A stretch of DNA of 34,168 nt from a virus. The notes beneath the pieces were generated by a model that ran no database searches, was not told where the DNA came from, and was given only the letters and a program-made list of their open reading frames with translations. Shown here piece after piece: positions 1,105 through 34,168 of the stretch (positions are counted from its first letter, which is position 1; each line of letters starts with the position of its first letter). The DNA is taken from positions 1 to 34,168 of the IMG/VR virus record IMGVR_UViG_3300009431_000633; one strand, written 5' to 3'. A program made the translations under genes and the position numbers.

Positions 1105-1106
1105 TG

Positions 1107-1961: not shown

Positions 1962-1963
1962 CC

Positions 1964-3210: not shown

Positions 3211-3705
3211 ATGAAAGCGGACCCAAAGAAGAGACTCCGCAAGTCCAAGATCAAGGAGCTGCGGTCAGACATCCGGGCGGCCCGGGAGGCTGGGTCCTGG
3301 TCCGCGCTTGCGCAGCTGCATCGCCAGGAGATCCAGCTCAAGGGACTCGACGATCCCCCCTATGTCCCAGACCCGCGGCCCCTCCCGGATGACCCGCTCG
3401 AGGCGGCTGCGGAGCGGGCCAAACGGCTGGGCCGCAAGGCGGAGCTCGCCGGGTCCTGGGTGGCTGCCCGGGACTTCCTGCGGGAGGAACAGTCCATCCG
3501 TGAGCGCATTGCAGCGCGGACGCTGCAAGCGGAGGAGGCGGCCCGCCGTGCCACGTCAGACGGGGACGTGGTGGGCAAGTTCCGGGCGGAGCTGGATGGA
3601 TTGCCGGACGTCCTGGTGGAACAGCTGCAAGATGCTTGTGAGGACCGGCTGCGTGGTCAGCCAGTCATGGTGGACAAGCCGGACGAACAGGTCCCCGCCG
3701 AATAG
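3211..3705 (+). CDS. terS: Candidate terminase small subunit
   Basis: A 164-residue, highly charged helical protein immediately upstream of the large terminase, the usual place for the DNA-recognition subunit of the packaging motor. I see no clear helix-turn-helix. It contains two related segments, AREAGSWSALAQLHRQE (about residues 24-40) and AELAGSWVAARDFLREE (about 76-92), indicating an internal duplication of a helical unit. Similar A-x-x-x-G-x-(W/F)-x-A-A helices occur in the oligomerisation region of other small terminases. The stop overlaps the next GTG as TAGTG. The assignment rests mainly on position. Confidence 0.55.
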   Translation: MKADPKKRLRKSKIKELRSDIRAAREAGSWSALAQLHRQEIQLKGLDDPPYVPDPRPLPDDPLEAAAERAKRLGRKAELAGSWVAARDFLREEQSIRERIAARTLQAEEAARRATSDGDVVGKFRAELDGLPDVLVEQLQDACEDRLRGQPVMVDKPDEQVPAE

Positions 3706-5186: not shown

Positions 5187-5195
5187 CACGGCGGA

Positions 5196-5253
5196 TTGTG
5201 ATAGATACAATTGTGAAACCCACAATCGTACCACGGTTGTGATAATGACAACC
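5196..5253. promoter_or_regulatory. Cluster of TTGTGA-containing inverted repeats before the portal gene
   Basis: Three TTGTGA copies occur on the + strand (5196-5201, 5211-5216, 5237-5242) and one reversed half-site CACAAT at 5221-5226. Two perfect inverted repeats result: ATTGTG-AAACC-CACAAT (5210-5226) and GGTTGT-GATAATG-ACAACC (5235-5253). The stretch is much more AT-rich than its flanks and lies in the only gap between terminase and portal. A regulator-binding operator or promoter for the head genes is the simplest reading. Confidence 0.5.
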
Positions 5254-5269
5254 ATCGCCGGGAGTCGTC

Positions 5270-6709: not shown

Positions 6710-6719
6710 TAAAACCGCC

Positions 6720-6740
6720 GCCCCGTGATCGGGGCTTTTT
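6720..6740 (+). terminator. Intrinsic terminator after the portal gene
   Basis: GCCCCG (6720-6725) pairs exactly with CGGGGC (6730-6735) across a TGAT loop and is followed by five T residues. This is a canonical Rho-independent terminator, ten bases after the portal stop. It would lower readthrough into the scaffold and capsid genes, so these probably have their own promoter or rely on partial readthrough or antitermination. Confidence 0.85.
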
Positions 6741-6752
6741 GGAGGAGGCCGC

Positions 6753-7448
6753 ATGCCATTCAATTGTCCACATTGCAGCCAGGGGATTGACAACGTCATA
6801 CCCAAGGACCGCTTTGACCAGGTCAACCAGCAGAAACAGGACGCGGAGACCGCGTTGGCCACGGCCCAGCAGCAGGTCCAGCAGGGCCAGCAGACCGCCG
6901 AACAGCTGGCCGCAGCCCAGCAACAGCTGGCCGCCGCCCAGGGGACCCTGTACGCACACCAGACCATCACGGCCGCGGGAGTCAATCCCCAGCTGGTGGA
7001 CTTGATGGTGTGGGAACACTCGAGGATCCCGGAGGATGCGCGGCCCGAGCTGGCCGAGTGGGTGACTGCGTTGCGTGCGGACCCCACGCAGGCCCCGCTA
7101 TCGCTGCAGCCACACCTTGCTCCGCAGCAACCCGCGGGCCCTGCCCCTGTTGCCCCCGCTCCCATGGGGCCCGTGGGAGTTCCGCCAGCGGCTCCGCCGC
7201 TGGCCCCTGCGCCGGCCGTTGCCCCGCCCCCGCCAGCGGCTCCGCCCCCGCCAGCGGCCCCCGCCCCCGCAGCTGCATTGGGAACCGTGGCCCCGCCGCA
7301 ACCCGCAGCACCCAGCCCGCCGTCCCACAACCCCAACGCGGGAGCCCAGCCCGTGGTGGCCGCCCCGGACGCGTTGTCCGCGGATGCCATCCTTTCGATG
7401 TCCACAAAGGAATACAAAGCCCAGCGGGACCAGATCATCAGAAAATAG
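6753..7448 (+). CDS. Scaffolding-like protein with a Pro/Ala-rich linker
   Basis: A 231-residue protein between portal and major capsid protein, the usual place of the head scaffold. It starts MPFNCPHCSQGID with one C-x-x-C. A Gln/Ala-rich coiled coil follows (about 22-65), then a small helical segment, then a low-complexity Pro/Ala linker (about 115-205). A conserved-looking C-terminal end (SADAILSMSTKEYKAQRDQ) would be the natural capsid-binding helix. The start has an ideal GGAGGAGG. The position and shape support a scaffold; the disordered linker and N-terminal Cys pair are less usual. Confidence 0.6.
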   Translation: MPFNCPHCSQGIDNVIPKDRFDQVNQQKQDAETALATAQQQVQQGQQTAEQLAAAQQQLAAAQGTLYAHQTITAAGVNPQLVDLMVWEHSRIPEDARPELAEWVTALRADPTQAPLSLQPHLAPQQPAGPAPVAPAPMGPVGVPPAAPPLAPAPAVAPPPPAAPPPPAAPAPAAALGTVAPPQPAAPSPPSHNPNAGAQPVVAAPDALSADAILSMSTKEYKAQRDQIIRK

Positions 7449-7478
7449 TTGTCATTTCTACAAACGCGCGTGTAGGCT
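7449..7478 (+). promoter_or_regulatory. Possible promoter for the capsid gene
   Basis: TTGTCA (7449-7454) and TAGGCT (7473-7478) are separated by 18 bases, a poor but possible sigma-70-like pair in a GC-rich genome. The 123-base gap before the capsid gene and the terminator upstream at 6720-6740 make a promoter here plausible. The rest of the gap carries only short hairpins (for example CGGGT-CGC-ACCCG). Confidence 0.22.
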
Positions 7479-7571
7479 GATCGCGTACACGTTAGATCCC
7501 CGCCCGGGTCGCACCCGTAACAGCGGAAAAGGCGGAAAGCCTGAACCACTGTTCTACGGGAGGCCCCTTCA

Positions 7572-8501
7572 ATGGCCGTCAATGCAAATGGACTTCTCTA
7601 CTCGGGGCTGGGTGATCTGCGCCTGGCCGCAGCCCTCCACCAGGAAATGCTGTTGCTCCTGGCGGACCGCGCGGATCTCATGGGCGATCCCACGATCGTC
7701 TACCTCGGAAACAAGGCAAAGCAGGGTAGCACCGCGTTCGAGATCGGCTTGGCCGGTCTGGACGGGTACAACCGCATGGCCGCCGTTGCCGAGGACGCGG
7801 ACACGGGTGTTACCGCCCTGACGGACGCGAGTCCCCAGGTTGTGATCGCCCGCCAGTCTCTCCGCCGCCAGATGACCTATCTGGCCCAGCTGACGGACAC
7901 CGTTGGCCTGGACATCCCGCGCCTGGCGCAGGACATGGTAGGGGCCGCGCGCATGCGGCTGACGGAGATGATCGCGGGGATCACCGATGATTTCACCGCC
8001 ACGGTCGGAACCACCACGGTGGACCTGGCGGTGGATGACTACATGGACGCGAACTATACGCTGACCCAGGCGTCCGTCCCGGGTCCGTACCTGTGCGTCC
8101 TGTACCCCGTCCAGGTCACCGACCTGCAGAACAGCATCCGTGCCGAGGCCGGCGCGATGCAGTTCAAGGACGATGCCCAGGAAATGCTGGACATCAAGGG
8201 CCCGGGCTACAAGGGCTCGTTCCTGGGTGTTCCGATTTTCGGTTCGTCCCTGGTCCCCACCGCCAACGCGGGTGCGGACTCGGCTGGCGGGATGTTCGGA
8301 CGCGGGGCCGTGGGATACGCGGACTTCGCAGCCACGGAGATCGTCCAGATCGGGGAACGCGTGTACCCCGCGGGCACCAGCATTTTCGTCGGACTCGACA
8401 ACGACGAACCCGGAGCCTACAACGAAATCGTGGGCAACTACTTCTGCGGCGTGGTCCAGATCGAGGACGGCCGCGGAGTGTCGATCATCACGGACCGCTA
8501 G
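7572..8501 (+). CDS. Major capsid protein
   Basis: A 309-residue protein placed after the scaffold-like gene and before the connectors. Its length and mixed alpha/beta composition fit the HK97-fold major capsid proteins without a long N-terminal delta domain, which agrees with a separate scaffold. The centre holds long acidic helices (LAQDMVGAARMRLTEMI). The second half holds the Gly/Ala-rich strands and P-domain-like segments, with FLGVPIFGSSLVP resembling the conserved end of such proteins. GGGAGG lies at 7559-7564. The stop codon sits in the loop of a perfect hairpin. I assign the fold from context and general pattern, not from alignment. Confidence 0.8.
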   Translation: MAVNANGLLYSGLGDLRLAAALHQEMLLLLADRADLMGDPTIVYLGNKAKQGSTAFEIGLAGLDGYNRMAAVAEDADTGVTALTDASPQVVIARQSLRRQMTYLAQLTDTVGLDIPRLAQDMVGAARMRLTEMIAGITDDFTATVGTTTVDLAVDDYMDANYTLTQASVPGPYLCVLYPVQVTDLQNSIRAEAGAMQFKDDAQEMLDIKGPGYKGSFLGVPIFGSSLVPTANAGADSAGGMFGRGAVGYADFAATEIVQIGERVYPAGTSIFVGLDNDEPGAYNEIVGNYFCGVVQIEDGRGVSIITDR

Positions 8502-8557
8502 GTCCGTGGTCGGGGAGGCGGTCCCCGCGGGGAGCTCCCGCAGCCTCCTCCGCGGGG
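8489..8557 (+). terminator. Hairpins at the end of the capsid gene
   Basis: CACGGACC (8489-8496) pairs with GGTCCGTG (8501-8508) across GCTA; the capsid stop TAG (8499-8501) straddles loop and stem. A second pairing, CCCCGCGG (8523-8530) with CCGCGGGG (8550-8557), encloses the palindrome GGAGCTCC. Neither has a T-run, so mRNA stabilisation or partial termination after a highly expressed gene is likelier than full termination. Confidence 0.4.
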
Positions 8558-8591
8558 GCCCCCACCTTTCCGAAATCAGGAGGAGGAAACC

Positions 8592-9305
8592 ATGGCCCAT
8601 ACGTTCGAAAGGGACGAGGTCACGGGACAGGCTACCGCCGCCAGCCCCGCATCCTCGGGTCCCGCCCAGTTCGAGGAAATCCCGCCGACCCAGCCCGTGG
8701 TCCGGGAACAGCTTGTAAACCTGCATCCGGCCGCGTCGTTCTATTACTGGTGGCACGAGGCCCGCTGGACGTGCATGGACGGCGAGTGGTTGCCCCAGCT
8801 GGGGATCATGCGCCTGGACCCCGGGGTGGCTGGCGTTGCCGAGGGGGGCAGCAAGAAAATCGCGGAGATGGATGCCAAGGCCAAGGGTCGGACGCTGATA
8901 CCCCACGATGCCATCAAGTTGACCATGCCCGATCGTACGAGCTACGTGCGGGCTTTCAAGGTCCGTGCCGGCGAGAACCGGACGGGCAAGCACCACATGT
9001 CCGTGTGGGAGACCCCGAAACAGATCGGGGCAAAGGTGATCATCAAGTCGGACACCGATGGGTATCGGGACTGGCTGCGGGCCCTCGTCCGAGAGGGGTA
9101 CATCCCTCCCCCCGATCCGGACATCGTGGATGCGCTGCTGGATTCCCAGCGGCAACGGCTCGAGGCTGCAGCCGGGTCCAACAACCCCAAGCGGGCGGAG
9201 CGGGCCCAGGCAAGGCTGGAGGAGATGGAAAACGCAGCCCAGCCCGGGAAGAAGAAGAAGAAGCCCGGGCGGCCCAAGGGCAGCAAGTCCAAGGGCAAGG
9301 ACTAG
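8592..9305 (+). CDS. Hypothetical head-region protein with basic tail
   Basis: A 237-residue protein directly after the capsid gene with an ideal AGGAGGAGG site. It has an Ala/Ser/Pro-rich N-terminus and an aromatic segment (FYYWWHEARW, about 50-59). A central beta-like region with Lys and Asp follows, then a helical region (about 175-217). The end is Lys-rich and includes an AT-hook-like PGRPKGSK. The basic tail suggests contact with DNA or the inner capsid. Head decoration, minor capsid or connector roles are all possible. Confidence 0.65.
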   Translation: MAHTFERDEVTGQATAASPASSGPAQFEEIPPTQPVVREQLVNLHPAASFYYWWHEARWTCMDGEWLPQLGIMRLDPGVAGVAEGGSKKIAEMDAKAKGRTLIPHDAIKLTMPDRTSYVRAFKVRAGENRTGKHHMSVWETPKQIGAKVIIKSDTDGYRDWLRALVREGYIPPPDPDIVDALLDSQRQRLEAAAGSNNPKRAERAQARLEEMENAAQPGKKKKKPGRPKGSKSKGKD

Positions 9306-9308
9306 ACC

Positions 9309-9593
9309 GTGGCGATTTACGAGTACCGGTGTGGAAACTGCGGAGCGGAGGTGGAGACCCTGACGTCGAAACCCCAGGACGCGATCCCTTGCCCGTACTG
9401 TGAGGCGGACTGCCCGCGGGTGCCCAGCGTACCGGCCAGGGTGGCATCCCTGCAGGCCCACCCGGAATCCCGGGATGCGTTCGCAGCCAAGTGCGTGGCG
9501 CACGGAGCCACGGAGCAATGGGCAAAGCACAAGTCCCGCGGGGTCCATGACCGCTGGCGGGACCGCCAGGTCGGAAACGAGTACCACTCGTGA
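9309..9593 (+). CDS. FmdB-like zinc-ribbon protein
   Basis: A 94-residue protein whose start, MAIYEYRCGNCGAEVE, matches the small FmdB/CXXC zinc-ribbon family. C8 and C11 pair with CPYC (28-31), forming a four-Cys metal site; another Cys follows. The C-terminal half is charged (HDRWRDRQVGNEYHS). The GTG start follows the upstream stop closely and the end overlaps the next gene as GTGA. In phages such ribbons occur among head genes, where the role is unknown; assembly or nucleic-acid contact is conceivable. Confidence 0.7.
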   Translation: MAIYEYRCGNCGAEVETLTSKPQDAIPCPYCEADCPRVPSVPARVASLQAHPESRDAFAAKCVAHGATEQWAKHKSRGVHDRWRDRQVGNEYHS

Positions 9594-10339
9594 GTAGCAC
9601 GGACACCCGATACTCCGCGCGGTACCAGCTCCCGGACCTTTTGGAACAGGGGCGGGACAGTGACATCCAGTGTCCCGTGTACGTGGATGGTGCGCTCGAG
9701 GCCCCCACGCAGGCGGGGTCAACCGTGACCATCCGCAATCAGGTGGGGGATGATGTGGTGTCGCCAGCGGCCGTGACCGTGACCGGGTCCATTGCCACGT
9801 ACACGGTTCCGTCCGCAACGCTGGACGCGGAGGACCTGTCCGAGGGGTGGATCCTGGAATGGGCCCTGGTCATGTCGGACGTGACCCACACGTTCCGCAA
9901 TGATGGGGCCCTGGTGTCCGCTCGCCTGTACCCATCGATCACGGACCTGGACCTGTTCCGCCGGGAAACCGCGCTGGACCCCAACAGCTCGGACCCCATG
10001 ACCGATGCCACGGACTATCAGTCCTACATCGATGAAGCGGACGTGGAAGTCCAGCTCCGGCTGATCGAACAGGGAAACCGCCCGAACCTGATCGTATCGC
10101 CCAGTGCGCTGCGTGGAATCTGGCTGAATCTGACCTTGGCGATCATCTTCGATGACCTGGCCACGCGTCAGTATGAAGCGTTTGCGGCCAAGGCCACGGA
10201 GTACCGCAGGCGGTACGAACAGGCTTGGAACCGTTGCAACTTCCTGTATGACAGCGACGACGACGGGACCCCGGACAGCCCGGACCATCGGGTGGGAGCT
10301 CGTCCCACCACCTGGCTTTGCTCGAGGGGTTACCGATGA
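9590..10339 (+). CDS. Head-tail connector with an N-terminal Ig-like segment
   Basis: A 249-residue protein from GTG 9590 (GTGA overlap). Residues about 20-110 alternate Thr/Val strands and turns like a small immunoglobulin-type beta sandwich. Residues about 120-225 are helical (SITDLDLFRRETALD, then a segment ending ATEYRRRYEQAWNR) and resemble the four-helix adaptors of the HK97 gp6 type that form a ring beneath the portal. The order capsid, this gene, tail terminator supports an adaptor. The fusion of an Ig-like part is the unusual point. The function is inferred from position and pattern. Confidence 0.6.
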   Translation: MSSTDTRYSARYQLPDLLEQGRDSDIQCPVYVDGALEAPTQAGSTVTIRNQVGDDVVSPAAVTVTGSIATYTVPSATLDAEDLSEGWILEWALVMSDVTHTFRNDGALVSARLYPSITDLDLFRRETALDPNSSDPMTDATDYQSYIDEADVEVQLRLIEQGNRPNLIVSPSALRGIWLNLTLAIIFDDLATRQYEAFAAKATEYRRRYEQAWNRCNFLYDSDDDGTPDSPDHRVGARPTTWLCSRGYR

Positions 10340-10779
10340 CCGCAGTTGCCCCCGCGACCATCCGCCAGGGGGTGGCCACCGCCTTGGACGCCGTGACCGG
10401 CTTTCGGGAATCCCGTTGGCCGTTCGACCTGATCGCGTTCGATCCCAAGACATACGTCCACAAGTCCTTTGCCGTGGGCCTGGGTCGTACTCAGCTGGTC
10501 CAGCAGACGGACCGCCAGCGGCTGTCCGTGGGGGCCTACGTGCGGACCCAGGTCCTGGCCCGGTTCCTGTGGCGCATCCGGGGGAATCGAATGCGGGCGG
10601 ACTATGACCTGGCCTTGGGCGGGGAGCTGTCCCTGGTGGCTGCGGCCAAGGGGTCTCCGCCCACGAACACACATATCGTATTTGAAGAGGTCCTGGGGCG
10701 GGAGCTCCTGTCTGAGGACCACGTTTACTTCGTTGGCACAATCGCGTTCAGGGTGCTGCACCATTACGCCCTGAGCTAA
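10336..10779 (+). CDS. Candidate tail terminator protein
   Basis: A 147-residue protein from ATG 10336 (ATGA overlap). Size, alpha/beta make-up and position just before the tail proteins fit the lambda gpU/HK97 gp10-type tail terminators, which cap the tail tube and join it to the head. Residues 1-40 form a helix and strand (TIRQGVATALDAVTGF). The middle is an Arg-rich strand pair, and the C-terminus (VYFVGTIAFRVLHHYAL) is a strand typical of the family. I cannot exclude a head-closure role. Confidence 0.55.
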   Translation: MTAVAPATIRQGVATALDAVTGFRESRWPFDLIAFDPKTYVHKSFAVGLGRTQLVQQTDRQRLSVGAYVRTQVLARFLWRIRGNRMRADYDLALGGELSLVAAAKGSPPTNTHIVFEEVLGRELLSEDHVYFVGTIAFRVLHHYALS

Positions 10780-10811
10780 ACGACCGTCCAAGGGGCGGTG
10801 GAGGAATACCG

Positions 10812-13800
10812 ATGGCAAGCCAGTTCGCTATTCGACGCCGGAAGCCGATCGCGGCTACGGGTCTGGGCGTCCGAACCTCTGCGACTCAGCGGGACGCGGA
10901 TGTCCCGATGATCATCGCGGGGGCGGGTGCTCCCTCTGGAAACTACGGATATGACGTCAATGAGATGGTCTATCTCCGTGATGGTGCCACCGGCACCAAC
11001 GCCCTGGTGTACAAAACCGTGGACAACGGGACCACCTGGCGGCTGGACAATCAAGATTTGATTCTGCCGGCTGCCACCGAGCTGACCATCGCGACCGGGG
11101 CAATCACCGCCACCCAGTCGTTGCACAACATCGATACCGAGGGTGACGCCGCGTCGGACGACCTGGACACCATCAACGGTTTGGCCGCGGGTGAGGTTTG
11201 TTTCTTCTATCCGAACAACGCGGCCCGCACCGTCGTGTTCAAGCACGGCACGGGCAACATCCTGTGCCCAAACGCTCGTGACATCTCCCTGGCCGAGGTC
11301 ACGGACTATGTTATGTGTATCGGGAACGGGACCAACGTCATCGTCGTGGCGGAGTCCACCCTGTCCCGGGACACCCTGCCCGAGCTGATTTTTGATGCAG
11401 CATCCGAGCTGACGATCGCCACGGGTGCGATCACCGTGACCCAGTTTGCCCACACGGTGGATACCGAGGGTGACGCCGCGTCGGACGACCTGGACACCAT
11501 CAACGGTGGGACCGCGGAGGAGATGGTCATTCTCCGCGCGAACAACGCAGGCCGCACCGTGGTGGTCAAGCATGGCACGGGCAACATCTATTGCCCGGAC
11601 GGCCGTGACATCTCCCTGGCCGAGGTCACGGACTCCGTGGTCCTGTACTACAACGGGTCCAACTGGATGGTCGTCGGGGAGTCCGTACTGTCTCGGGACA
11701 CCCTGCCCGAGGTCATCTTTGATGCGGCCACCGAGCTGACGATCAGCACGGGTGCGATCACCGCGACCCAGGCCGCGCACACGGTGGACACCGAGGGTGA
11801 CGCCGCGTCGGACGACCTGGACACCATCAACGGTGGGACCGCAGAGGAGGTCATCTGGCTGCGCCCCAACAACGCCGCGCGGACCGTGGTGGTCAAGCAT
11901 GGCACGGGCAACATCCTGTGCCCCAACGGCCGTGACATCTCCCTGGCCGAGGTCACGGACTATGTCCAGCTGTACTACGACGGTTCCAACTGGGCAGTCA
12001 TCGCATCCAATACCCTGGCTGCGGACACGCATCCGGATCTGATCTTTGATGCGGCCACCGAGTTGACGATCAGCACGGGCGCGATCACCGTGACCCAGGC
12101 CGCGCACACGGTGGACACCGAGGGTGACGCCGGGTCCGATGACCTGGACACCGTCAGCGGTGGGACCGCAGAGGAGGTCATCTGGCTGCGGGCCGAGAAC
12201 GCCGGCCGGGACGTGGTGGTCAAGCACGGGACCGGCAACATCCTGTGCCCGGAGGCCCAGGACATCACGCTGGCCGAGGTTTCGGACTTCGTCCAGCTGT
12301 ACTACGACGGTTCCAACTGGACGGTCGTGGCCTGGCGGACCGCCGCCCAGCGGCCCACCACCAAGTTCCTGACCTATGCGGGATCGTCCCTGACGATCGC
12401 CACGGGTGCGATCACAGTGACCGGCGGTTCCCACGCCGTGGACACCGAGGCCGCGGCTGCGTCGGATGACCTGGACACCATCAATGGCGGGACCGCGGAC
12501 GAGCTCGTGTTGCTCCGCCTGGCGGATGCCACGCACAACGTGGTGGTCAAGCACGGGACCGGCAACATCACGTGTCCGGATGGCGATGACATCATCCTGG
12601 ACACCCTGACGGACTTTGTCCTGGTGGCCTACGAGGGGACCGGCTGGCGGGTGATTGCGTCCTCCCTGGACGTCAGCACCCCGCACAGTGATCTGCGGTT
12701 CCAGGCGGCCACGGAGCTGACGATCGCCACGGGTGAGATCACAGTGACCCAGGCCCGGCATACCATCGACACGGAGGCGGATGCGGGGACCGATGACCTG
12801 GACACCATCAATGGCCTGGGGGCGGACGAGCTGGTTTGGCTGACCGCCGAGAATGCCGGCCGAGACGTGGTGGTCAAGCATGGCACGGGCAACATCCTGT
12901 GCCCCAACGGCCGTGACATTACGCTGGCCGAGGTCACGGACGGAGTCATGGTCCTGGGCGATGGCTCCAACGCCATCGTACTGGCTGCGGGCACGCTGGC
13001 CGCAGACACCCACCCGGATCTGGTGTTCGACGCGGCCACGGAGCTGACGATCAGCACGGGTGCGATCACTGCGACCCAGGGAATCCACTCGGTGGACACC
13101 GAGGGTGACGCTGCGTCGGACGACCTGGACACCATCAACGGAGTGGTTGCCGGGGAGCTCGTGATCTTCTATCCGGAGAATGCCGCGCGCACCGTGGTGG
13201 TCAAGCACGGCACGGGCAACATCTATTGCCCGAACTCCCGTGACATCTCCCTGGCCGAGGTCACGGACTACGTCATTGGCGTGGGAGACGGAACCAACGT
13301 GATCATTGTCGCGGCCAGCACCCTGGCCCGTGACACGCTGCCCGAGCTGATCTTCGATGCGGCCACCGAGCTGACGATCAGCACGGGTGCGATCACCGCG
13401 ACCCAGGCCGCGCACAAGGTGGACACCGAGGGTGACGCCGCGTCGGACGACCTGGACACCATCAACGGCGGAACCGCGGAGGAGGTCATCTGGCTGCGTG
13501 CCGAAAACTCCGGGCGCACCGTGGTGGTCAAGCACGGCACGGGCAACATTGTGTGTCCCAACGGCCGTGACATCTCCCTGGCCGAGGTCACGGACTACGT
13601 CCAGGTTGTCTACGACGGTTCCAACTGGGTGGTCGTCTCCTGGTCCACCACGGTGGATGATCTCGAGGACGTGCGAATCGACACGTTCACAAACCCGGCC
13701 GCGGCTGGGACCAACATCCTGGTCCAGAAGGCTGCAGATTTCGACGAAACCACCTGGGGCAACCTCACGCAGCCGGACGTTCCGCGCGTGGCCCAGGTGG

Positions 13801-14162
13801 CTGCGTCCGCTGGTCCGGACTGGGACGGCGGAGACATCGAGGTCACCGGGCTGACCATGGCGGGCGATGACGCGACCGACACCATCACCCCGGTGGCGGG
13901 CTCCACGGTACAGGGAACCATTCCGTTCCAGCTCATTCGTCGGGTGCGCAACCTGGGCACCCACTCCGCGGGAACCATGGATGTCCAGTGCGGGATCGCC
14001 ATGGGCGTGGTCGTGGGCAGCAAGTCCCCGACCTTGCTCGAGGCATACGAGACCAGCGCGGGCGGCCGGGACGCTGGGGCCACCCTGTCCGCGGATGGGG
14101 CGTTCACCCCGACCGCGGCACCGGATGGAGCCAAGGACTACGTGGTTTCTTACAAGACCTGA
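10812..14162 (+). CDS. Giant eight-repeat tail-associated protein
   Basis: A 1,116-residue protein between tail terminator and tail tube, where most siphoviruses have nothing of this size. Residues 1-87 form an N-terminal module with an Asp-box-like TVDNGTTW (about 69-76). Eight tandem repeats of 109 residues follow (about 88-959). Each contains L-T-I-(A/S)-T-G, V-D-T-E, S-D-D-L-D-T, V-V-K-H-G-T-G-N-I, a C-P motif and a closing strand pair. The C-terminal domain (about 960-1116) is unlike the repeats. Single repeats of this type occur in phage fibre-like and decoration proteins; that similarity is from memory. A role as surface fibre or tail decoration is inferred. The start has GGAGGA. Confidence 0.75.
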   Translation: MASQFAIRRRKPIAATGLGVRTSATQRDADVPMIIAGAGAPSGNYGYDVNEMVYLRDGATGTNALVYKTVDNGTTWRLDNQDLILPAATELTIATGAITATQSLHNIDTEGDAASDDLDTINGLAAGEVCFFYPNNAARTVVFKHGTGNILCPNARDISLAEVTDYVMCIGNGTNVIVVAESTLSRDTLPELIFDAASELTIATGAITVTQFAHTVDTEGDAASDDLDTINGGTAEEMVILRANNAGRTVVVKHGTGNIYCPDGRDISLAEVTDSVVLYYNGSNWMVVGESVLSRDTLPEVIFDAATELTISTGAITATQAAHTVDTEGDAASDDLDTINGGTAEEVIWLRPNNAARTVVVKHGTGNILCPNGRDISLAEVTDYVQLYYDGSNWAVIASNTLAADTHPDLIFDAATELTISTGAITVTQAAHTVDTEGDAGSDDLDTVSGGTAEEVIWLRAENAGRDVVVKHGTGNILCPEAQDITLAEVSDFVQLYYDGSNWTVVAWRTAAQRPTTKFLTYAGSSLTIATGAITVTGGSHAVDTEAAAASDDLDTINGGTADELVLLRLADATHNVVVKHGTGNITCPDGDDIILDTLTDFVLVAYEGTGWRVIASSLDVSTPHSDLRFQAATELTIATGEITVTQARHTIDTEADAGTDDLDTINGLGADELVWLTAENAGRDVVVKHGTGNILCPNGRDITLAEVTDGVMVLGDGSNAIVLAAGTLAADTHPDLVFDAATELTISTGAITATQGIHSVDTEGDAASDDLDTINGVVAGELVIFYPENAARTVVVKHGTGNIYCPNSRDISLAEVTDYVIGVGDGTNVIIVAASTLARDTLPELIFDAATELTISTGAITATQAAHKVDTEGDAASDDLDTINGGTAEEVIWLRAENSGRTVVVKHGTGNIVCPNGRDISLAEVTDYVQVVYDGSNWVVVSWSTTVDDLEDVRIDTFTNPAAAGTNILVQKAADFDETTWGNLTQPDVPRVAQVAASAGPDWDGGDIEVTGLTMAGDDATDTITPVAGSTVQGTIPFQLIRRVRNLGTHSAGTMDVQCGIAMGVVVGSKSPTLLEAYETSAGGRDAGATLSADGAFTPTAAPDGAKDYVVSYKT
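11073..13688 (+). repeat. Eight in-frame 327-bp tandem repeats
   Basis: Units begin at 11073, 11400, 11727, 12054, 12381, 12708, 13035 and 13362, each exactly 327 bp (109 codons); the last one diverges near its end. Long tracts are nearly identical at the DNA level between units 3, 7 and 8, while units 5 and 6 are the most diverged. Every unit keeps the AAGCA(C/T)GG core of the KHGTG motif. The strict length and unequal identity indicate duplication followed by recombination or gene conversion. Confidence 0.92.
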
Positions 14163-14187
14163 ACCGTCAGCTGAAAGGGGCTGATCG

Positions 14188-14673
14188 ATGGCTTTCGAAT
14201 CGACGATCGTCAAGCATTTCACGGACGCTACGCTGGTCCTGAAGGACGGCACCGGAACGCCCGTGACGCTGACCACTCAGCTGGACAACGGGGATCTGAA
14301 GATCGACGGGTTGACGCCGGACCTGAAGGAAACCCACGCGTACTATTCGCGGGGGACCCTGGTGGGTCTACGGAGCGGCAACCCAAAGCATCCATCCCTG
14401 TCCCTGTCGTTCATGCAAGCGGGTCTTTCGGACGCCACGGATGACGCGATCTTGGACTTCCTGCTGTTCCGCAACAAGTACAGCGGGAATACCTCGACCA
14501 CGGAGTCCATAGGCGACGTCAAGACCATCATTGCGGAATTGACGATTGCCTACGACGCGGAAACCCACGTGTTCACCATCAACGACTTCCACCCGGAGGT
14601 GGCGTTTGCTGAGGGTGAGCCCAACACTATCTCCACGTCTGGGACGGTGTACGGGGCCGTGGCTACCACCTGA
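14188..14673 (+). CDS. Major tail (tube) protein
   Basis: A 161-residue protein directly before the tail chaperone genes, as expected for the tail tube subunit that polymerises around the tape measure. It is mostly beta-structured with a central segment (ATDDAILDFLLFRNKY, about 83-98) that would be the conserved helix of the tube fold. The C-terminal part contains alternating strands ending in TSGTVYGAVATT. An AAAGGGG site precedes the ATG. There is no additional Ig domain. The assignment rests on gene order, size and composition. Confidence 0.7.
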   Translation: MAFESTIVKHFTDATLVLKDGTGTPVTLTTQLDNGDLKIDGLTPDLKETHAYYSRGTLVGLRSGNPKHPSLSLSFMQAGLSDATDDAILDFLLFRNKYSGNTSTTESIGDVKTIIAELTIAYDAETHVFTINDFHPEVAFAEGEPNTISTSGTVYGAVATT

Positions 14674-14696
14674 TCGGTATGACGGAGGAGGAGGCA

Positions 14697-15071
14697 ATGT
14701 CCGACGCACCGATCGTGACCATCCAAGGCCAGGAGGTGGAACTGGAAATTCCCACCTCCCAGGCCGAGGTCCTGGCCGTTATCAATATCGGAGTCCGCCA
14801 TCCCCAGTGGTCCGCAGCTGCGGCCCTGGGGGTGTGCTGGCCGCGACATATCACCTGGCCTGGCCAGGCCCGTCCCGAGATGTTGCGTTGTCGGTTCGAT
14901 GGCCTCGTGTACGGGTCCAACGTGATCGACTCCATGTGTTCGGCTGGTGTGCCGCTGGGTGAAGTGATTGCGGCGGGGATCGCTGCTTACGAGCTCTTGC
15001 CCGATTTGCTGCTATCCCCGGAGGAGCTGGCCGCGGCCAAGGCTTTTATCGATCCCCACGGGGAAGCATAG
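14697..15071 (+). CDS. Tail assembly chaperone, unshifted product (G-like)
   Basis: A 124-residue protein between tail tube and tape measure. ATG 14697 is preceded by GGAGGAGGAGG; an in-frame ATG 14679 is less well placed. It begins with a short beta segment (IVTIQGQEVELEIP). A hydrophobic helical part with Trp and Cys follows, ending in a helix (SPEELAAAKAFIDPHG). In siphoviruses this slot encodes gpG, which with its frameshifted longer form binds the tape measure and recruits tube subunits. The frame -1 to its end continues as a convincing protein (15068-15199). Confidence 0.65.
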   Translation: MSDAPIVTIQGQEVELEIPTSQAEVLAVINIGVRHPQWSAAAALGVCWPRHITWPGQARPEMLRCRFDGLVYGSNVIDSMCSAGVPLGEVIAAGIAAYELLPDLLLSPEELAAAKAFIDPHGEA

Positions 15072-15199
15072 AGGTTGCCATCCTCGAGCTGTGCGCCCTG
15101 TGGGGAAAGGAGCCTAGCTGGTGGGCCACGTTGAGCCGGGAGGACCAGACCAAGATGCTGGCGTGGCACCAGGCCAAGCTGGCGGGCCAAAAGGAGTGA
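15068..15199 (+). CDS. Tail assembly chaperone, -1 frameshift extension (T-like)
   Basis: In the -1 frame relative to the upstream gene, 43 codons read IEVAILELCALWGKEPSWW and onward to TGA 15197-15199, with strong coding character and the W/D/LAW pattern seen in the T part of gpGT proteins. There is no ATG, GTG or TTG near its beginning in this frame, while the frame is open well upstream, so it is probably reached by ribosomal slippage. The best candidate is the T-run at 15044-15047, where the Phe TTT codon can re-pair one base back. The fused product would be about 167 residues. The exact slip site is uncertain because the preceding Ala codon re-pairs poorly. Confidence 0.65.
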   Translation: MEVAILELCALWGKEPSWWATLSREDQTKMLAWHQAKLAGQKE

Positions 15200-15202
15200 G
15201 CC

Positions 15203-15709
15203 GTGGGCGGAGTCTCCGCCAGCGATGGAACCACCACGGTCCGCATGGATGGGGCGCTGTTCGATCTGGAGCGCACCATCCCCGATGGGCTGGCTCCTGT
15301 CGTCGTCCGCCGGTTTGAGGAGACCAGCGCGCGGATCGTCCGGGATGCGCTCGAGCGATGGCCGCGCAAGACCGGCCGATCCGCTGCTGCGTTTCGCATC
15401 CTGTCTCGGTTGACCCCCGATGGAATCGAAACCGTGCTGTACAACGACGCGCGGGACGCATCGGGACGGCCGTATGCCTACATGATCAAGTTCTCGCGAT
15501 ACACGGAGGCGGAGCTGCGGGCCCGAGCCAAGAGTTCCGCCCAGCTGCGTTACCTGCAACGTAAGTTTGGCAAGGGTGCGCCCAGCGATGCGCTCACCTA
15601 CAAAAGCCCGTGGCAGGTCCTGGTACGAAGTCCCCACCGCAAGGCCCAGCCCAAGCTGGCGGACGAGTTGCAGGACGAGTTGATTCGCCTGGCGGACGGG
15701 GGTAGCTGA
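15203..15709 (+). CDS. Hypothetical tail protein
   Basis: A 168-residue protein from GTG 15203 with AAAAGGAG upstream, between the chaperone extension and the tape measure. It has an N-terminal helix (VVVRRFEETSARIVRDALERW, about residues 34-54), a central beta segment (GIETVLYNDARDASGRPYAYM) and a C-terminal helix. This helix-strand-helix pattern recalls HK97 gp10-like tail completion proteins, although another candidate for that role lies at 10336. It may help close the tail or act as a tail adaptor. Confidence 0.6.
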   Translation: MGGVSASDGTTTVRMDGALFDLERTIPDGLAPVVVRRFEETSARIVRDALERWPRKTGRSAAAFRILSRLTPDGIETVLYNDARDASGRPYAYMIKFSRYTEAELRARAKSSAQLRYLQRKFGKGAPSDALTYKSPWQVLVRSPHRKAQPKLADELQDELIRLADGGS

Positions 15710-27307: not shown

Positions 27308-27428
27308 GTGGGCCTTGTTCGTGGTCTCGGTCCCCGTGCTGTTCGTGCGGTACACGATGGAGGAGTTGGAGTTTGCACGACTCCGCCGCAAGGCGGCCCA
27401 GCGTCGGCGGGACCTGGGTCTGCAGTGA
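27291..27428 (+). CDS. Small single-pass membrane protein
   Basis: A 45-residue product starting MRRLCRWALFVVSVPVLFV with AAGGGGAG upstream, beginning inside the end of the preceding gene. A transmembrane segment (about 6-22) is followed by a strongly basic cytoplasmic helix (RLRRKAAQRRRDLG). It overlaps the next gene as GTGA. Such small phage membrane proteins often act in exclusion or host takeover, but nothing specific can be claimed. Confidence 0.5.
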   Translation: MRRLCRWALFVVSVPVLFVRYTMEELEFARLRRKAAQRRRDLGLQ

Positions 27429-27733
27429 CCGAACACACCCAGTGGGTCCGCTGGCAATGCGGCTACCTGACCCACCACCAGACCGTGTTGATGGGCTGGG
27501 AGGGAACCCTGGTGTTCCCCCACCTGGTGGCGTGGGCCAAGGCCCAGGGGTTTGGTGGGCGGCTGCCCCGTCCTTGCCTGGAACCAAGGGCCCTGTCCGC
27601 CATCATGCGAGGGCTGCCCGAGGACTCCGCCGCAGAGGCTGTCCGGCAGATGATCGGGGCTGGGCTGCTGGAACCCAACGGTGATAGCGGATTCGTTGCC
27701 ATTCACAACTACCGGAAATGGCAAAGGAAATAA
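27425..27733 (+). CDS. Winged-helix, replisome-organizer-like protein
   Basis: A 102-residue protein from GTG 27425. The layout WVRWQCGYLTHHQTV, a helical middle, MRGLPEDSAAEAVRQMIGAG, then LLEPNGDSGFVAIHNYRKWQ resembles the N-terminal winged-helix domain of phage replication initiators/replisome organizers, in which a W-V-R-L start and a closing W-R-I-H-D-Y-like strand are typical. The usual C-terminal DnaD-like or helicase-loading part is absent, so this is domain-sized. It ends immediately before the DnaA-box cluster, which supports origin binding. Confidence 0.55.
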   Translation: MTEHTQWVRWQCGYLTHHQTVLMGWEGTLVFPHLVAWAKAQGFGGRLPRPCLEPRALSAIMRGLPEDSAAEAVRQMIGAGLLEPNGDSGFVAIHNYRKWQRK

Positions 27734-27976: not shown

Positions 27977-28216
27977 GTGGCTTTGGAGTTGTTTGTCAGG
28001 AAGAATGGGCGGTTCGGGCACAAGGCCCGGGACCGTGAAATCGTGGCCTACGTGATGAAGCGCCGGACACTCCGGGAGCGTATCGTGCGGGCCGTCCTCG
28101 AGATCGATGCCCAGCTCGGACAGCGTGCCATGCCTCTTCCCAAGGACCAGACCGCTGGGGGGCTGGTGGTCCGCCAGCTTCCGGACGGGTCCGTCCACAT
28201 CCGGAGGGCTGGGTGA
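27977..28216 (+). CDS. Small basic hypothetical protein after the origin
   Basis: A 79-residue product from GTG 27977, with GGGAGGA at 9-base spacing. It contains a basic helical part (FVRKNGRFGHKARDREI, RRTLRERIVRAVLEID) and a C-terminal strand pair (GGLVVRQLPDGSVHIRR). Many Arg/Lys suggest nucleic-acid binding. It is the first gene downstream of the origin and is coupled to the repair gene that follows (TGATG). No family recognised. Confidence 0.55.
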   Translation: MALELFVRKNGRFGHKARDREIVAYVMKRRTLRERIVRAVLEIDAQLGQRAMPLPKDQTAGGLVVRQLPDGSVHIRRAG

Positions 28217-28587
28217 TGCGGATGTGGCTGGGGGTGGAACCCCGTTACCTGTGCGTGGCCCACCTGGGCGGGGAGCACCGCGAGCTCCACGGTATCGCCT
28301 TTGCCTTGCGGCGGATTGCCGAGGGCAAGGACGTGGACCGCTGGACAAACAAGCTGTTGGGCCACATTGCCCGCGGCCAGGTGGACCTGGACCAGGTGGT
28401 GGCCCGCCACGCTGCCCTGGCTTTGGAGATGGAACGGCGGGGGTGCAACCACCGCAGCATCCTGGACGAGTTGCCCTCCTGGCCTTACGACACGGGCACC
28501 GTGGACGAGGGGGTTTCCACGCTGGCCCTGTACGGTCGGTGTAACGCGTGCTGGGGCAGACTCCACGCGGTCGGGGGTCAGCTGTGA
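28216..28587 (+). CDS. denV: Pyrimidine dimer DNA glycosylase (T4 endonuclease V-like)
   Basis: A 123-residue protein resembling phage endonuclease V, which removes UV-induced pyrimidine dimers by N-glycosylase and AP-lyase action. With ATG 28216 as start, H16, L17, E20, R22, E23 and L24 fall at exactly the same positions as in T4 DenV (HLMAEYREL there, HLGGEHREL here); E23 is catalytic in T4. GKDVDRW matches T4 GKRVRDF, and ALEMERRGCNHRSI matches a T4 helix. The exact register supports this start over GTG 28213. T4 uses the free amine of Thr2; here residue 2 is Arg, so Met removal is unlikely and the nucleophile may differ. The C-terminus has a CNAC pair absent from T4. Confidence 0.75.
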   Translation: MRMWLGVEPRYLCVAHLGGEHRELHGIAFALRRIAEGKDVDRWTNKLLGHIARGQVDLDQVVARHAALALEMERRGCNHRSILDELPSWPYDTGTVDEGVSTLALYGRCNACWGRLHAVGGQL

Positions 28588-29252
28588 ACAAAACCAAAAT
28601 CGAGTGGACGGACTACACCTGGAACCCGGTCACCGGGTGTCTGCACGGTTGTGACTACTGCTACGCTCGCCGGCTGGCCAAGCGGTTTGCGGGCCGCAAT
28701 GGCTACCCGGTCAGCAACCCGTTCCAGTTCCGATACCACGCGGATCGCCTGGACGAACCGGGCAAGGCCAAGAATCCATCCCGCATCTTCGTGTGTTCCA
28801 TGGGGGATCTGTTCGGGGCCTGGGTTCCGGGAGGTATCATCCGAGATGTCATCCACCCTGCGTGGATGCACCCCCGCCACACGTTCCAGTTCCTGACCAA
28901 GGCTCCATCCCGCTATGCCCGGTTCAAGTTCCCTCCCAATGCGTGGCTTGGGTTCAGTGCTCCGGACAGGTTCGAGCTGGACTTGAGGAAGCGGGGGCTG
29001 TGGTCCAGTGCCCAGGTGGACCGTGTCCAGTACGTGAGCCTGGAACCCATCCGCGATCGGTTCAGTCCGCAAAACCTGGCGGGGCTGGATTGGGTGATCG
29101 TCGGGGGGCAGACCGGGGCGGGGGCCAAGGCTCCGGACTTGGACCACGTCCAGTCCGTGATCGATGCCACGGCCCAGCTGGGGATCCCCTGTTTCGTGAA
29201 AGACAACTGCCGGGTCGCGGGGCCCAGGGAGTTTCCGGAGGTCCGCACGTGA
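28584..29252 (+). CDS. DUF5131 (Gp37/Gp68-family) radical-SAM-type protein
   Basis: A 222-residue protein starting VNKTKIEWTDYTWNPVTGC, the characteristic opening of the phage Gp37/Gp68 family. Cys at 19, 23 and 26 form the C-x3-C-x2-C iron-sulfur motif of radical SAM enzymes. Further on, FVCSMGDLFG, FQFLTKAPSRY, VSLEPI and WVIVGGQTG are family-typical. The biochemical function of the family is not established; some members are compared with spore photoproduct lyase. The GTG overlaps the stop of the dimer glycosylase, so the two are translationally coupled and may both act on damaged or modified nucleic acid. Confidence 0.88.
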   Translation: MNKTKIEWTDYTWNPVTGCLHGCDYCYARRLAKRFAGRNGYPVSNPFQFRYHADRLDEPGKAKNPSRIFVCSMGDLFGAWVPGGIIRDVIHPAWMHPRHTFQFLTKAPSRYARFKFPPNAWLGFSAPDRFELDLRKRGLWSSAQVDRVQYVSLEPIRDRFSPQNLAGLDWVIVGGQTGAGAKAPDLDHVQSVIDATAQLGIPCFVKDNCRVAGPREFPEVRT

Positions 29253-29589: not shown

Positions 29590-30003
29590 GTGGGTGCTGT
29601 GGCCCAGCGGTTCCTGTCCACGGACGAGGTGGTGGACTTGATGCCGTTCGGACGGGACGTCCTGCAATCCATGATGCAGGACACCCCGCCGGACTACTCG
29701 CCTCCCTGGGCCAACGTGTCCACGGGCCGCGGTCGCCAGGCCCGATACATCTGGACCCCGGACCTGGATCGCCTGCTAGACTGGGCCCAGGCCGTGGAGG
29801 CTTGGCGGAGTGGCGAATGGCCAGCATTGACAGACGGGGGGACCGCTGGCGGTTGCGCTGGCGGGACCCGGACGGATCCCAGCGACAGCACACCACGACC
29901 ACCAGACGAGTGGTCTACCAGCTCCTCCCCTTTGCCCAGGCGGCCGAGGACGGCGGACGCCGATGGCGACCCGTTGCAGCTGCCCCGGAGCTCCGCGCGT
30001 TGA
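29590..30003 (+). CDS. Excisionase-like DNA-binding protein overlapping the integrase
   Basis: A 137-residue product from GTG 29590 with GGAGGAG upstream. The N-terminal 75 residues (RFLSTDEVVDLMPFGRDVLQ, then YIWTPDLDRLLDWAQA) have the S-T/V-x-E-V start and spacing of MerR/AlpA-type helix-turn-helix proteins used as phage excisionases or repressors. No stop occurs before 30003, so the C-terminal third, a Ser/Thr/Pro/Arg-rich low-complexity tail, overlaps 187 bp of the integrase gene in another frame. Excision control is inferred from the neighbour. Confidence 0.6.
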   Translation: MGAVAQRFLSTDEVVDLMPFGRDVLQSMMQDTPPDYSPPWANVSTGRGRQARYIWTPDLDRLLDWAQAVEAWRSGEWPALTDGGTAGGCAGGTRTDPSDSTPRPPDEWSTSSSPLPRRPRTADADGDPLQLPRSSAR

Positions 30004-30920
30004 TGCAACGTCACCTTGACGAGACCCACACTCTGGTGGCCCGTCGCACCCTGCAGGCCCGCAGGACTGCGCTCGAGCGGTTCCGCGGGTTTCTCAAGGT
30101 CCAGGACGGCAGACGGCTGCGGGCTCACACGGCCCACGACCTGTCCCAGGCCAACCTGCGGCGGTTCCACGCGTGGCTGGCGGAGGAGGGGTGTGCCCCG
30201 GCCACCCGCAACGCGTATGCCACCCAGGTGATGGTGTTTTGGCGGTGGGCCCATGACCACGAGCTCTTAGGAGACCAGGTCCCCAGGCCCAGGCCCATCC
30301 GGTTGCCCACTCCCCCGGCCCATCCGGTCCGGGCACCGAGCTGGGCGGAGATGGATGCGGCCATCGAGGCGGCCACCGATGAATGGCACAGGCGGGTGCT
30401 GCTGGTGCTGCGGTGTACGGGGCTGCGGTGCCACCACCAGGCTTTGGCCCTGCGCTGGGATGACCTGGACTTTGACCGCGGGACCCTGACCCTGCGCGGG
30501 GAGCTGGGCAAGACCAGCGCGGAGAAGCGGGGCCGCATCATGCCCGTGGCCCCCGTGCTGCTGCGGGAGCTGGGGACCTGGGGTGTCCGCGAGGGGTTGA
30601 TACTGCGGGGTGCCGAGGGGCGGCCCTTACCCAAGTCCACGTTGCTGCAGCGGACCAGGGGGGCCTGGGAGCGAGCGGGGGTGGATGGGCTGCTGTGGGC
30701 CAAGCGTCCGCATCACGCGTTTCGCAAGGGGTTTGAGACGTCGTTGATTCGGATGGGTGTCAACTATGTGACTGCAGAGTTTCTGGTTGGACACCAGCTG
30801 CCGGGGATGCTGGACATGTACATGGATCCGACCTTGGCGGTGGACCTTGAAGGGGCTGTGGGGATGGTCCCGGAGGTCGGGTCCGTGCCCATGTTCCGCA
30901 GACGGACGGAGGAGGGGTAG
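29817..30920 (+). CDS. int: Tyrosine integrase
   Basis: A 367-residue site-specific recombinase for lysogeny. ATG 29817 has GGAG six bases upstream. An N-terminal arm-binding-like region (IDRRGDRWRLRWRDPDGSQ) and a SAM-like core-binding domain (about 60-150) precede the catalytic domain. Catalytic residues are all visible: R204 in CTGLR, H300 and R303 in HHAFR, H326 in VGHQL, and nucleophile Y335 in LDMYMDP. The enzyme therefore looks active. Its start lies within the excisionase-like gene. No attachment site can be defined without a host sequence, but phased 10-bp repeats lie 410 bp downstream. Confidence 0.92.
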   Translation: MASIDRRGDRWRLRWRDPDGSQRQHTTTTRRVVYQLLPFAQAAEDGGRRWRPVAAAPELRALMQRHLDETHTLVARRTLQARRTALERFRGFLKVQDGRRLRAHTAHDLSQANLRRFHAWLAEEGCAPATRNAYATQVMVFWRWAHDHELLGDQVPRPRPIRLPTPPAHPVRAPSWAEMDAAIEAATDEWHRRVLLVLRCTGLRCHHQALALRWDDLDFDRGTLTLRGELGKTSAEKRGRIMPVAPVLLRELGTWGVREGLILRGAEGRPLPKSTLLQRTRGAWERAGVDGLLWAKRPHHAFRKGFETSLIRMGVNYVTAEFLVGHQLPGMLDMYMDPTLAVDLEGAVGMVPEVGSVPMFRRRTEEG

Positions 30921-32110: not shown

Positions 32111-32184
32111 TTCCCGAGCTCCTGGTGGTGGGGGTGGCTGGGCTCTGGGCCGTGTGGGCGTGGAGGAGGGTGGCCCGTGGGTGA
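32107..32184 (+). CDS. Tiny 25-residue membrane peptide
   Basis: GTG 32107 overlaps the upstream stop as GTGA, and the frame ends at TGA 32182-32184 overlapping the methyltransferase start (GTGGGTGA). The product, with LLVVGVAGLWAVWAW followed by basic residues, is a single transmembrane helix. The tight overlaps on both sides support translation; alternatively the frame only couples the methyltransferase to its upstream gene. Confidence 0.4.
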   Translation: MIPELLVVGVAGLWAVWAWRRVARG

Positions 32185-32995
32185 CCAGCTCCCCCGGAAC
32201 GTCATCCTGCAGGGGGATGCCCTGGATAGGCTGCGGGAGCTCCCGGCCGAGTCCGTTCATTGCTGCGTGACTTCCCCGCCTTACTGGGGGCTGCGGGACT
32301 ATGGGGAGGACGGCCAGCTTGGGTTGGAGGCGACCCCGGAGGAGTATGTTCAGCGGCTGGTTGGGGTGTTCCAGGAGGTTCGGCGGGTGCTGCGTGGGGA
32401 CGGGGTTTTGTGGCTGAACACGCGGCCCAGGTATGCCACGGGGGGCCTGGGTGGAGGTGGCCGAGCTCTGGACCGTCCGGGCTGGACCACGCAGGCTGGA
32501 TGGCGATCCACGCCAGGCTATCGCCATAAGGAACTGGTTCCTGTCCATGAAATGACCGTTTGTGCGTTGCGTGCGGATGGGTGGTTGCGGCGGGCGGATG
32601 TCATCTGGGACCAGCGGACAGCCTCGGAACCCATGCGGGCCGATCGTCCAGCGATGCGCCATGAGTACCTCTACCTGTTGACTAAGGAACCACATTACTG
32701 GGCCAAGCCCGGGGAGCGGTGCGAGACCGTTTGGGCCATCACCCCCGCCCGGGACGCAGCCCACCCAGCGACCATGCCGCGAGCTCTGGCGGAGCGGTGC
32801 ATTGTCGGGTGGTGTCCACCAGGTGGGGTTGTTCTTGACCCATTCGCCGGGAGCGGGACTACGTCCGTGGCTGCCATCGAAACGGGCCGGGACTGGCTGG
32901 CCATAGAGCTCTCCGCCGAATATATCGAGCTCGCGCAAACCCGGATTCTAGCTGCCCAACCCGTGTTACCGGGTGTTGTCGTGGGGGCCCGATGA
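32177..32995 (+). CDS. DNA methyltransferase (N4-cytosine/N6-adenine type), orphan
   Basis: A 272-residue S-adenosylmethionine-dependent DNA methylase of the beta class. Catalytic motif IV is TSPPYWGLRDY (SPPY at 33-36) near the N-terminus, and the cofactor motif I DPFAGSGTT (221-229) is near the C-terminus, the order of the beta group. SPPY is compatible with N4-cytosine as well as N6-adenine methylation. GGAGGAGGG lies upstream of GTG 32177. No restriction gene is adjacent, so protection against host restriction or regulation is likelier than a restriction-modification system. Confidence 0.9.
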   Translation: MGDQLPRNVILQGDALDRLRELPAESVHCCVTSPPYWGLRDYGEDGQLGLEATPEEYVQRLVGVFQEVRRVLRGDGVLWLNTRPRYATGGLGGGGRALDRPGWTTQAGWRSTPGYRHKELVPVHEMTVCALRADGWLRRADVIWDQRTASEPMRADRPAMRHEYLYLLTKEPHYWAKPGERCETVWAITPARDAAHPATMPRALAERCIVGWCPPGGVVLDPFAGSGTTSVAAIETGRDWLAIELSAEYIELAQTRILAAQPVLPGVVVGAR

Positions 32996-33231
32996 CCCCC
33001 CAGCGCCTGGCCGAGCTGACCCGCAAATGGGGGTTTTACATGGGGGCCTGGTGCCACGGGTTCACCGCGGGATTCGAGGGGGAGGAGGCCCCCAGGCGGT
33101 ACAGGACAAGGTCCAAGGAACTGAACAAGTCCGTTCGGGCATGGGCGTCCGGGTGGAGAGATGGACACGAGGCCCGGTCAGGGTCTCTTTTTGGAGGAGG
33201 TAACGGAGATGGACAAGCTGGTACTACCTGA
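32992..33231 (+). CDS. Small hypothetical protein
   Basis: A 79-residue product from ATG 32992 (ATGA overlap). It starts with a helix (MTPQRLAELTRKWGFYMGAW) and has an Arg-rich centre. The last 15 residues (SLFGGGNGDGQAG) are simply what the frame reads through the next gene's ribosome site and start, so the stop overlaps the first clamp-like gene by 23 bases. Unknown function; its position suggests coupling to that gene. Confidence 0.5.
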   Translation: MTPQRLAELTRKWGFYMGAWCHGFTAGFEGEEAPRRYRTRSKELNKSVRAWASGWRDGHEARSGSLFGGGNGDGQAGTT

Positions 33232-33811
33232 TCGGGTGTTCAACCTGCGGCACATCACACGGCCGGACAGTGACCGTGGCCTGCAGGGTGTCCACATCAC
33301 GCGGAAGTATGCGGAGGCCACGAACGGTTATGCCCTGGTTCGCATCGCGTTTTCGGCCAAGGAACAAGCCCACATGTCCGAGGCCAAAGGGCTGCCCCCT
33401 GCCAAAGGCTGCGGGATTCGGTTCGTGTCCGGTCGCAAGCCCCTGCGTAAGGCCAGCAGCGGCCAGCTGGATAAGTGGGGCAAGCGCGGGCGAAAGCCCA
33501 CGGATGACATGCTGTTGCTGGTCAGCTGTGGAAAGGGCTGGATGGCGGACCCCGAGCGGGCCACGACCGTCCAGGTTTTGCCCATGGACTTCCCGCCCGT
33601 GGGGGACCTGATCAAGCGAGAGGACAAGGTCAAGCGCCGTAAGCTGGGGTTGGATCCCCAGTTGATCGTGGCCTGCCAAAAGGCGGTGGGTGTGAGCTAT
33701 CGCACGGGTGCGACGATTTACGCCGCAAAGGACATCCTGAACCCATACAAGGTGGAGCTGCACGGAGCCAAGGACGCGACCTGCTACGTGATGGCAATGG
33801 CGGTGGGATGA
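33209..33811 (+). CDS. Sliding-clamp-like protein 1 (two-domain, DnaN-like)
   Basis: A 200-residue protein; ATG 33209 has GGAGGAGG at 8-base spacing. Two clamp-like segments are visible. GVHITRKYAEATNGYALV (27-44) resembles the strand-turn of a DnaN domain ending in the A-T-D-G-H-R-L element. FPPVGDLI (128-135), LGLDPQLIVACQKAVG (146-161) and CYVMAMAV (192-199) follow the order of DnaN's last domain. It is paralogous to the next gene: LPD-x-V-x-x-LRH, the (T/V)NG(Y/H)A(L/M)VR motif and the ending align. DnaN has three domains, so a 200-residue form would be PCNA/gp45-like in size. It probably encircles DNA as a processivity factor or modifies the host clamp; this is inference. Confidence 0.65.
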   Translation: MDKLVLPDRVFNLRHITRPDSDRGLQGVHITRKYAEATNGYALVRIAFSAKEQAHMSEAKGLPPAKGCGIRFVSGRKPLRKASSGQLDKWGKRGRKPTDDMLLLVSCGKGWMADPERATTVQVLPMDFPPVGDLIKREDKVKRRKLGLDPQLIVACQKAVGVSYRTGATIYAAKDILNPYKVELHGAKDATCYVMAMAVG

Positions 33812-34168
33812 TGCTGGTATTCCCCGACTGGGTACACGATCTGCGCCACACGGTTCTGGTGGACAAGGACAGGCCCTTGGACCCCATGTCCGGGGTCATG
33901 ATCACCCCGGATTACGCTCAGTCCGTCAACGGCCACGCCATGGTCCGGCGGTACTACACGCACAACGAACAGCAGCGCATGGACGAGCTGGGAGGGATGC
34001 CCCCGGAGGATGGGCTGCTGGTGGTGTTCGAGACCAGCGCAAAGCCCAAGAAATGCGATCGGTATGGGGCTGCGGACCTGATCTGTCTGGAACCCATCGC
34101 GGAGGGCCTGGAATGGCTGGCGGACCCCGTCCGCGGGGTGATCGTCCGGCTGCTGTCTGGCCTTGGGG
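33808..34168 (+). CDS. Sliding-clamp-like protein 2, N-terminal part (continues at 2-430)
   Basis: The ATG overlaps the upstream stop as ATGA. The window end falls inside the gene, which continues without interruption in the copy at the window start (after removing the 119-base overlap) and ends at 430. The N-terminal segment LVFPDWVHDLRH (3-14) and SVNGHAMVRR (39-48) match the first paralogue. The product is 223 residues and has the clearer DnaN-like C-terminal domain. The two genes are translationally coupled, so equal amounts and perhaps a mixed ring are likely. Confidence 0.72.
   Translation, partial: MMLVFPDWVHDLRHTVLVDKDRPLDPMSGVMITPDYAQSVNGHAMVRRYYTHNEQQRMDELGGMPPEDGLLVVFETSAKPKKCDRYGAADLICLEPIAEGLEWLADPVRGVIVRLLSGLG
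34050..34168. repeat. Terminal direct repeat, right copy (assembly overlap)
   Basis: Identical to 1-119. It lies inside the second clamp-like gene and should be removed once when the circle is closed. Confidence 0.93.

Follow-up and report, generated by a model that had tools for sequence, protein, structure and literature searches.

Two overlapping genes, here called A and B, lie at the junction of the window, which is the whole stretch of viral DNA that was analysed (34,168 nt). The ends of the window are identical over 119 bp (1-119 and 34050-34168), and it is therefore read as a circle; because this terminal repeat is exact, gene B is read up to the last base of the window and then onwards from position 120, giving a single open frame of 223 codons, while the bases at 2-119 are the same as those at 34051-34168. 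The stop codon of A (TGA) and the start codon of B (ATG) share the sequence ATGA at 33808-33811. The start codon of A (ATG, 33209) is preceded by GGAGGAGG, a predicted ribosome-binding site that is rated good, and an alternative in-frame ATG at 33161 is possible. Upstream of A are a DNA methyltransferase gene (32177-32995) and then a small open reading frame. The position-specific GC contents of A (0.63/0.45/0.80) and B (0.75/0.40/0.80) agree with those of the phage's other genes.

Table 1. Positions of genes A and B and of their clamp-related elements in the window
Feature	Position	Strand	Basis
Gene A, predicted reduced DnaN-like protein, 200 aa	33209-33811 with stop codon (33209-33808 without)	+	Open reading frame, Shine-Dalgarno sequence, GC3
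Putative ribosome-binding site of A, GGAGGAGG	33193-33200	+	Sequence
Gene B, 5′ part, codons 1-120 and one base	33808-34168	+	ATGA overlap, terminal repeat
Gene B, 3′ part to stop codon	120-430	+	Open frame 2-430
A residues 25-49, LQGVHITRKYAEATNGYALVRIAFS	33281-33355	+	Alignments: DnaN L155 to ~180, one wall of the peptide-binding pocket
B residues 120-131, GDFPDLAQVIPR	116-151	+	Alignments: DnaN ~239-250, pocket residues P242 and V247 kept
B residues 191-202, RLPVAILMPQRQ	329-364	+	Alignments: final DnaN strand, M362, P363 and R365 kept

An earlier note on this DNA had described A and B as two coupled paralogues of 200 and 223 residues. Both open reading frames are present, and BLASTP aligns their products with 33% identity over 179 aa (E 6e-24). 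The FPDLAQVIP and LPVAILMPQ elements that it had pointed out are both located in B. In a family tree, A and B are sisters (100/99) on a long stem (4.0); only this pairing is relied upon, the other branches being long and partly unresolved.

The same note had stated that no polymerase or helicase was visible, and profile searches agree: DNA polymerase (including PolA), DnaB helicase and DnaN (PF00712) profiles have no match in the record. The larger open reading frames tested show no likeness to replication enzymes, except for a weak 'replication initiation' match at 27308-27733 (E 0.0015). A tyrosine integrase (PF00589, E 4e-13) is encoded at 29802-30920, so the phage is probably temperate. 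Nearby, a pyrimidine-dimer DNA glycosylase gene (PF03013, E 8e-11; 28213-28587) overlaps a DUF5131/radical-SAM-like gene (PF07505, E 4e-45; 28548-29252), and the two could possibly be a UV-damage repair pair. Further, a gene encoding 1116 aa (10812-14162) has a 327-bp (109-aa) unit that is repeated in tandem ~7.8 times at 11073-13637. In contig L073, which is 96-98% identical to the window, the alignment offset shifts by 327 bp (from 1105 to 1432), equal to one unit fewer; the number of repeats varies between near-identical phages. The part of L073 that was compared matches window positions 1106-15510 only, and its record has no match to the family of A and B. Close relatives of the phage, sought through its terminase, its integrase and a neighbouring gene, also led to no homologue of A or B.

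Membership of a reduced phage clamp family

Neither A nor B has an accepted Pfam or NCBIfam match, and neither tblastn searches of annotated phages nor single-protein scans of IMG/VR returned matches to them. A search with the alignment of A and B was the first to recover any relatives (21 in IMG/VR), and later scans found more, including in genomes of Providencia, Xenorhabdus, Pantoea and Symbiopectobacterium. The relatives tested are full members of phrog_3007 (E 1e-29 to 1e-63), which is also the sole, and weak, PHROG match of A and B (E 0.0013 and 0.0008). As a guard against circularity, a family HMM was built without A and B; it matches B at 1.3e-6, in two stretches with one per half, and A at 2.5e-8, with the significance confined to its first half; among 2,000 shuffled copies, none did better than E ~8. 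The relatives found by tblastn with B align over its residues 16-203, and thus over both halves, whereas the second half of A is placed through its alignment with B. By these comparisons, A and B are classified as members of the phrog_3007 family of reduced phage clamps. They belong to the same length class as other phrog_3007 proteins (~170-215 aa), such as Sodalis phage SO-1 gp07, Burkholderia phage BcepC6B gp31 and Shewanella phage 1/41 S141_43, and they share with them the ordered motifs GVHIT-TNGH, FPDxxRVIP and VVMPxR and probably the absence of the same parts of DnaN. Unlike these relatives, A and B each carry an additional insertion ahead of the FP motif.

A family profile (18 rows, A and B among them) matches DnaN structures in the PDB at E 1e-13, over DnaN residues 137-291 (domains II-III), whereas a profile from A and B only returned noise. 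SO-1 gp07 by itself has a DnaN match at E 2e-8. Moreover, the family profile recovers the chromosomal DnaN in seven of seven whole host genomes (2e-13 to 5e-12), and PHROG 947, a 368-position model of phage processivity factors, matches family members from its position 136-160 onwards. The AlphaFold2 model of A itself is unusable (pLDDT 38.8), which makes a fold search with it meaningless. The relative L012 is modelled well (pLDDT 89.6, pTM 0.85): the first 44 PDB matches of its model in Foldseek are all bacterial clamps (best E 5.8e-6), followed by PCNA (E 0.035), and in a viral library it matches many proteins of 180-250 aa, several of them named DNA polymerase III beta subunit. Because the family profile matches DnaN and the fold of a relative matches clamps, the descent of A and B from the clamp is supported, and the DnaN-like identity proposed earlier stands.

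Annotation of phrog_3007 is split between 'DNA polymerase III beta subunit/clamp' and 'RusA-like resolvase'. It is very improbable that A and B are RusA-like Holliday junction resolvases, as the label on their sole PHROG match and the names of RefSeq copies would have it, given the DnaN profile and fold matches. Even with loose cut-offs, RusA Pfam models match neither A and B nor any of 11 relatives. Several phrog_3007 members match the Pfam DnaN central domain, and the RefSeq copies named RusA-like have GenBank originals that say 'beta subunit' (for example H42/H43 and H44/H45). Overall, the 'RusA-like Holliday junction resolvase' label on phrog_3007 and on many phage clamp homologues in RefSeq appears to be wrong.

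The family is widespread, with 226-252 phage records matched per tblastn query (three family members used), so a diverged, short phage clamp is not new in the sense that the earlier note had supposed. In a copy-number scan, the family was present once in each phage or virus record that contained it, two matches within one record being pieces of one broken gene; the tblastn count of 254 places in 252 phage records would allow a second place in up to two records. Xenorhabdus hominickii has several copies at separate places, none of them in tandem. Because the phage and virus records examined hold single copies, a tandem, diverged pair in a phage that seems to lack a polymerase and a replicative helicase is unusual and perhaps unique among the records searched. 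Salmonella phage Fels-1 (L077) holds a remnant of a reduced clamp gene, which matches profile positions 76-176 of 177 only.

Parts of the clamp that are kept and lost

DnaN (PF00712/PF02767, TIGR00663) has ~366 residues in three domains. The homology of A and B with it covers domain II and a portion of domain III; they have pocket residues in common with it and score below the Pfam and NCBIfam cut-offs. In the alignment with DnaN, the first aligned position of the family falls near residue 132, which leaves out domain I; nor is there a counterpart in the family of DnaN residues ~287-317 and 335-352, amounting to ~50 residues of domain III. In agreement with a shortened domain III, the FP motif and the final strand are ~72 residues apart in A and ~80 in B, as compared to 126 in DnaN. 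Domains II and III of DnaN together have four channel helices; the L012 model shows two helices that are long (5-13 and 123-133) and two that are short (105-108 and 159-164). Judging by the relatives and by their own lengths, A and B would each comprise about one and a half clamp domains. The earlier note had placed them closer to the two-domain layout of PCNA and T4 gp45. That layout does not hold, since domain I and parts of domain III are absent and the modelled relative has two long helices: the subunit of T4 gp45 is of similar size, but PCNA and gp45 are complete two-domain subunits, and the sequence kinship of A and B is to DnaN rather than to PCNA.

The dimer interface of DnaN includes I272, L273, E298 and E304 (PMC11139829). 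In the family, I272 and L273 are mostly replaced by K and M, and E298 and E304 are absent, which leaves A and B without an interface of the DnaN type. The earlier suggestion of a ring that captures the host polymerase finds no support, though A and B may form a ring of another construction. A processivity clamp, in which A and B together or each alone form a small ring that is loaded by the host and tethers host Pol III, is an unlikely reading, although it agrees with the clamp homology by profile and fold, with the lack of a detectable polymerase in the record, and with the persistence in the family of domain III helix 1 with a hydrophobic pair near the I272/L273 position. The duplicated, diverged genes with overlapping ends also suggest a matched pair. 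Against it, A and B are too short to hold two full clamp domains, the modelled relative lacks two of the four channel helices, the interface residues are not conserved, and the relatives are single copy. More doubtful still is the specific arrangement in which A and B would co-assemble into a heteromeric miniature ring or half-ring on phage DNA, recruit the host replisome and divide the work.

The loss of the same interface residues bears on a second reading, in which host replication is blocked or altered by the reduced protein through its association with the host clamp or clamp loader. Retention of the pocket and of part of domain III is consistent with such a poison subunit, and the clamp gene has a cargo-like position in several phages: in SO-1 and Shewanella phage 1/41, it stands alone among structural genes of the opposite strand, and gp07 of SO-1 is annotated as a 'possible moron gene product'. 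With the DnaN dimer interface not conserved, we consider this pairing unlikely.

The peptide-binding pocket has fared differently from the rest of the aligned region. A review (PMC11139829) lists the residues of the clamp-binding-motif pocket. At 28 aligned positions, most of 22 relatives are identical to DnaN, and 11 of these 28 are pocket residues, as compared to 6 of the 137 other aligned positions (odds ratio 14, p 3e-6; the p-value assumes independent columns though the sequences are related). T172, G174 and P242 are invariant across the 22 relatives. Subsite I of the pocket is kept in the family, and subsite II is largely gone (N320, Y323 and V344 lost). Each of the two proteins retains seven of 18 listed pocket residues: L155, T172, G174, L177, P242, M362 and M364 in A, and G174, H175, P242, V247, M362, P363 and R365 in B. 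The losses include H175Y, R246D, P363A and R365A in A, and T172V, R246Q and M364Q in B.

Proposed role and its meaning

The account that we favour, while holding it at slightly below an even chance, is that A and B are a tandem duplicate that acts as a soluble decoy of the docking pocket, or as an adaptor, for partners of the host clamp, rather than as a ring. A and B would have arisen when a reduced phage DnaN homologue of the phrog_3007 kind was duplicated in tandem within their lineage, and they would form no closed ring around DNA such as DnaN does. Instead, they would be soluble copies of the docking pocket that bind the clamp-binding peptides of host proteins, with polymerases, the delta subunit of the clamp loader, Hda, MutL and others as candidate partners. 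As a result, the host clamp may be outcompeted for its partners, or a host polymerase or repair protein may be brought to the phage DNA. Because the pocket residues that are kept differ between the two, A and B may split the partners between themselves. Conservation of the pocket combined with loss of the ring parts suggests selection for holding clamp-binding peptides, not for encircling DNA.

Some findings count against a decoy. Pocket residues are lost in both A and B, and subsite II is mostly gone across the family. SO-1, BcepC6B and C7 carry a single clamp copy plus their own polymerase or primase-polymerase, which is also consistent with a role in processivity. Within the proteins of the phage itself, clamp-binding-type peptides occur no more often than expected by chance; one candidate is the N-terminus MTQLSLVPQD of the open reading frame at 1331-1618, which may resemble the N-terminal clamp-binding peptide of Hda. 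Of the earlier proposal that the pair might poison or replace the host clamp, a weak form, competition for clamp partners, fits best, and replacement by a ring is unsupported.

The pocket losses, together with the strong divergence of A and B (stem length 4.0), would also suit a reuse of the clamp fold elsewhere, for example as an accessory to DNA repair or methylation, with a pocket that no longer binds the usual peptides; the neighbouring methyltransferase, glycosylase and DUF5131 genes point in the same direction. Still, G174, P242 and M362 persist in both proteins, and we regard such a reuse as improbable.

Among open-access papers, no functional study of reduced phage clamps was found. 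The bacterial clamp is a replication hub and an antibiotic target. If the decoy or adaptor account is true, a reduced clamp that has lost the ring and retained the partner pocket would act as a natural decoy for this hub, and the duplicated pair would be a natural experiment on the role of each part of the pocket, within a family that over 200 phage records contain, some of them with an apparently mistaken annotation.
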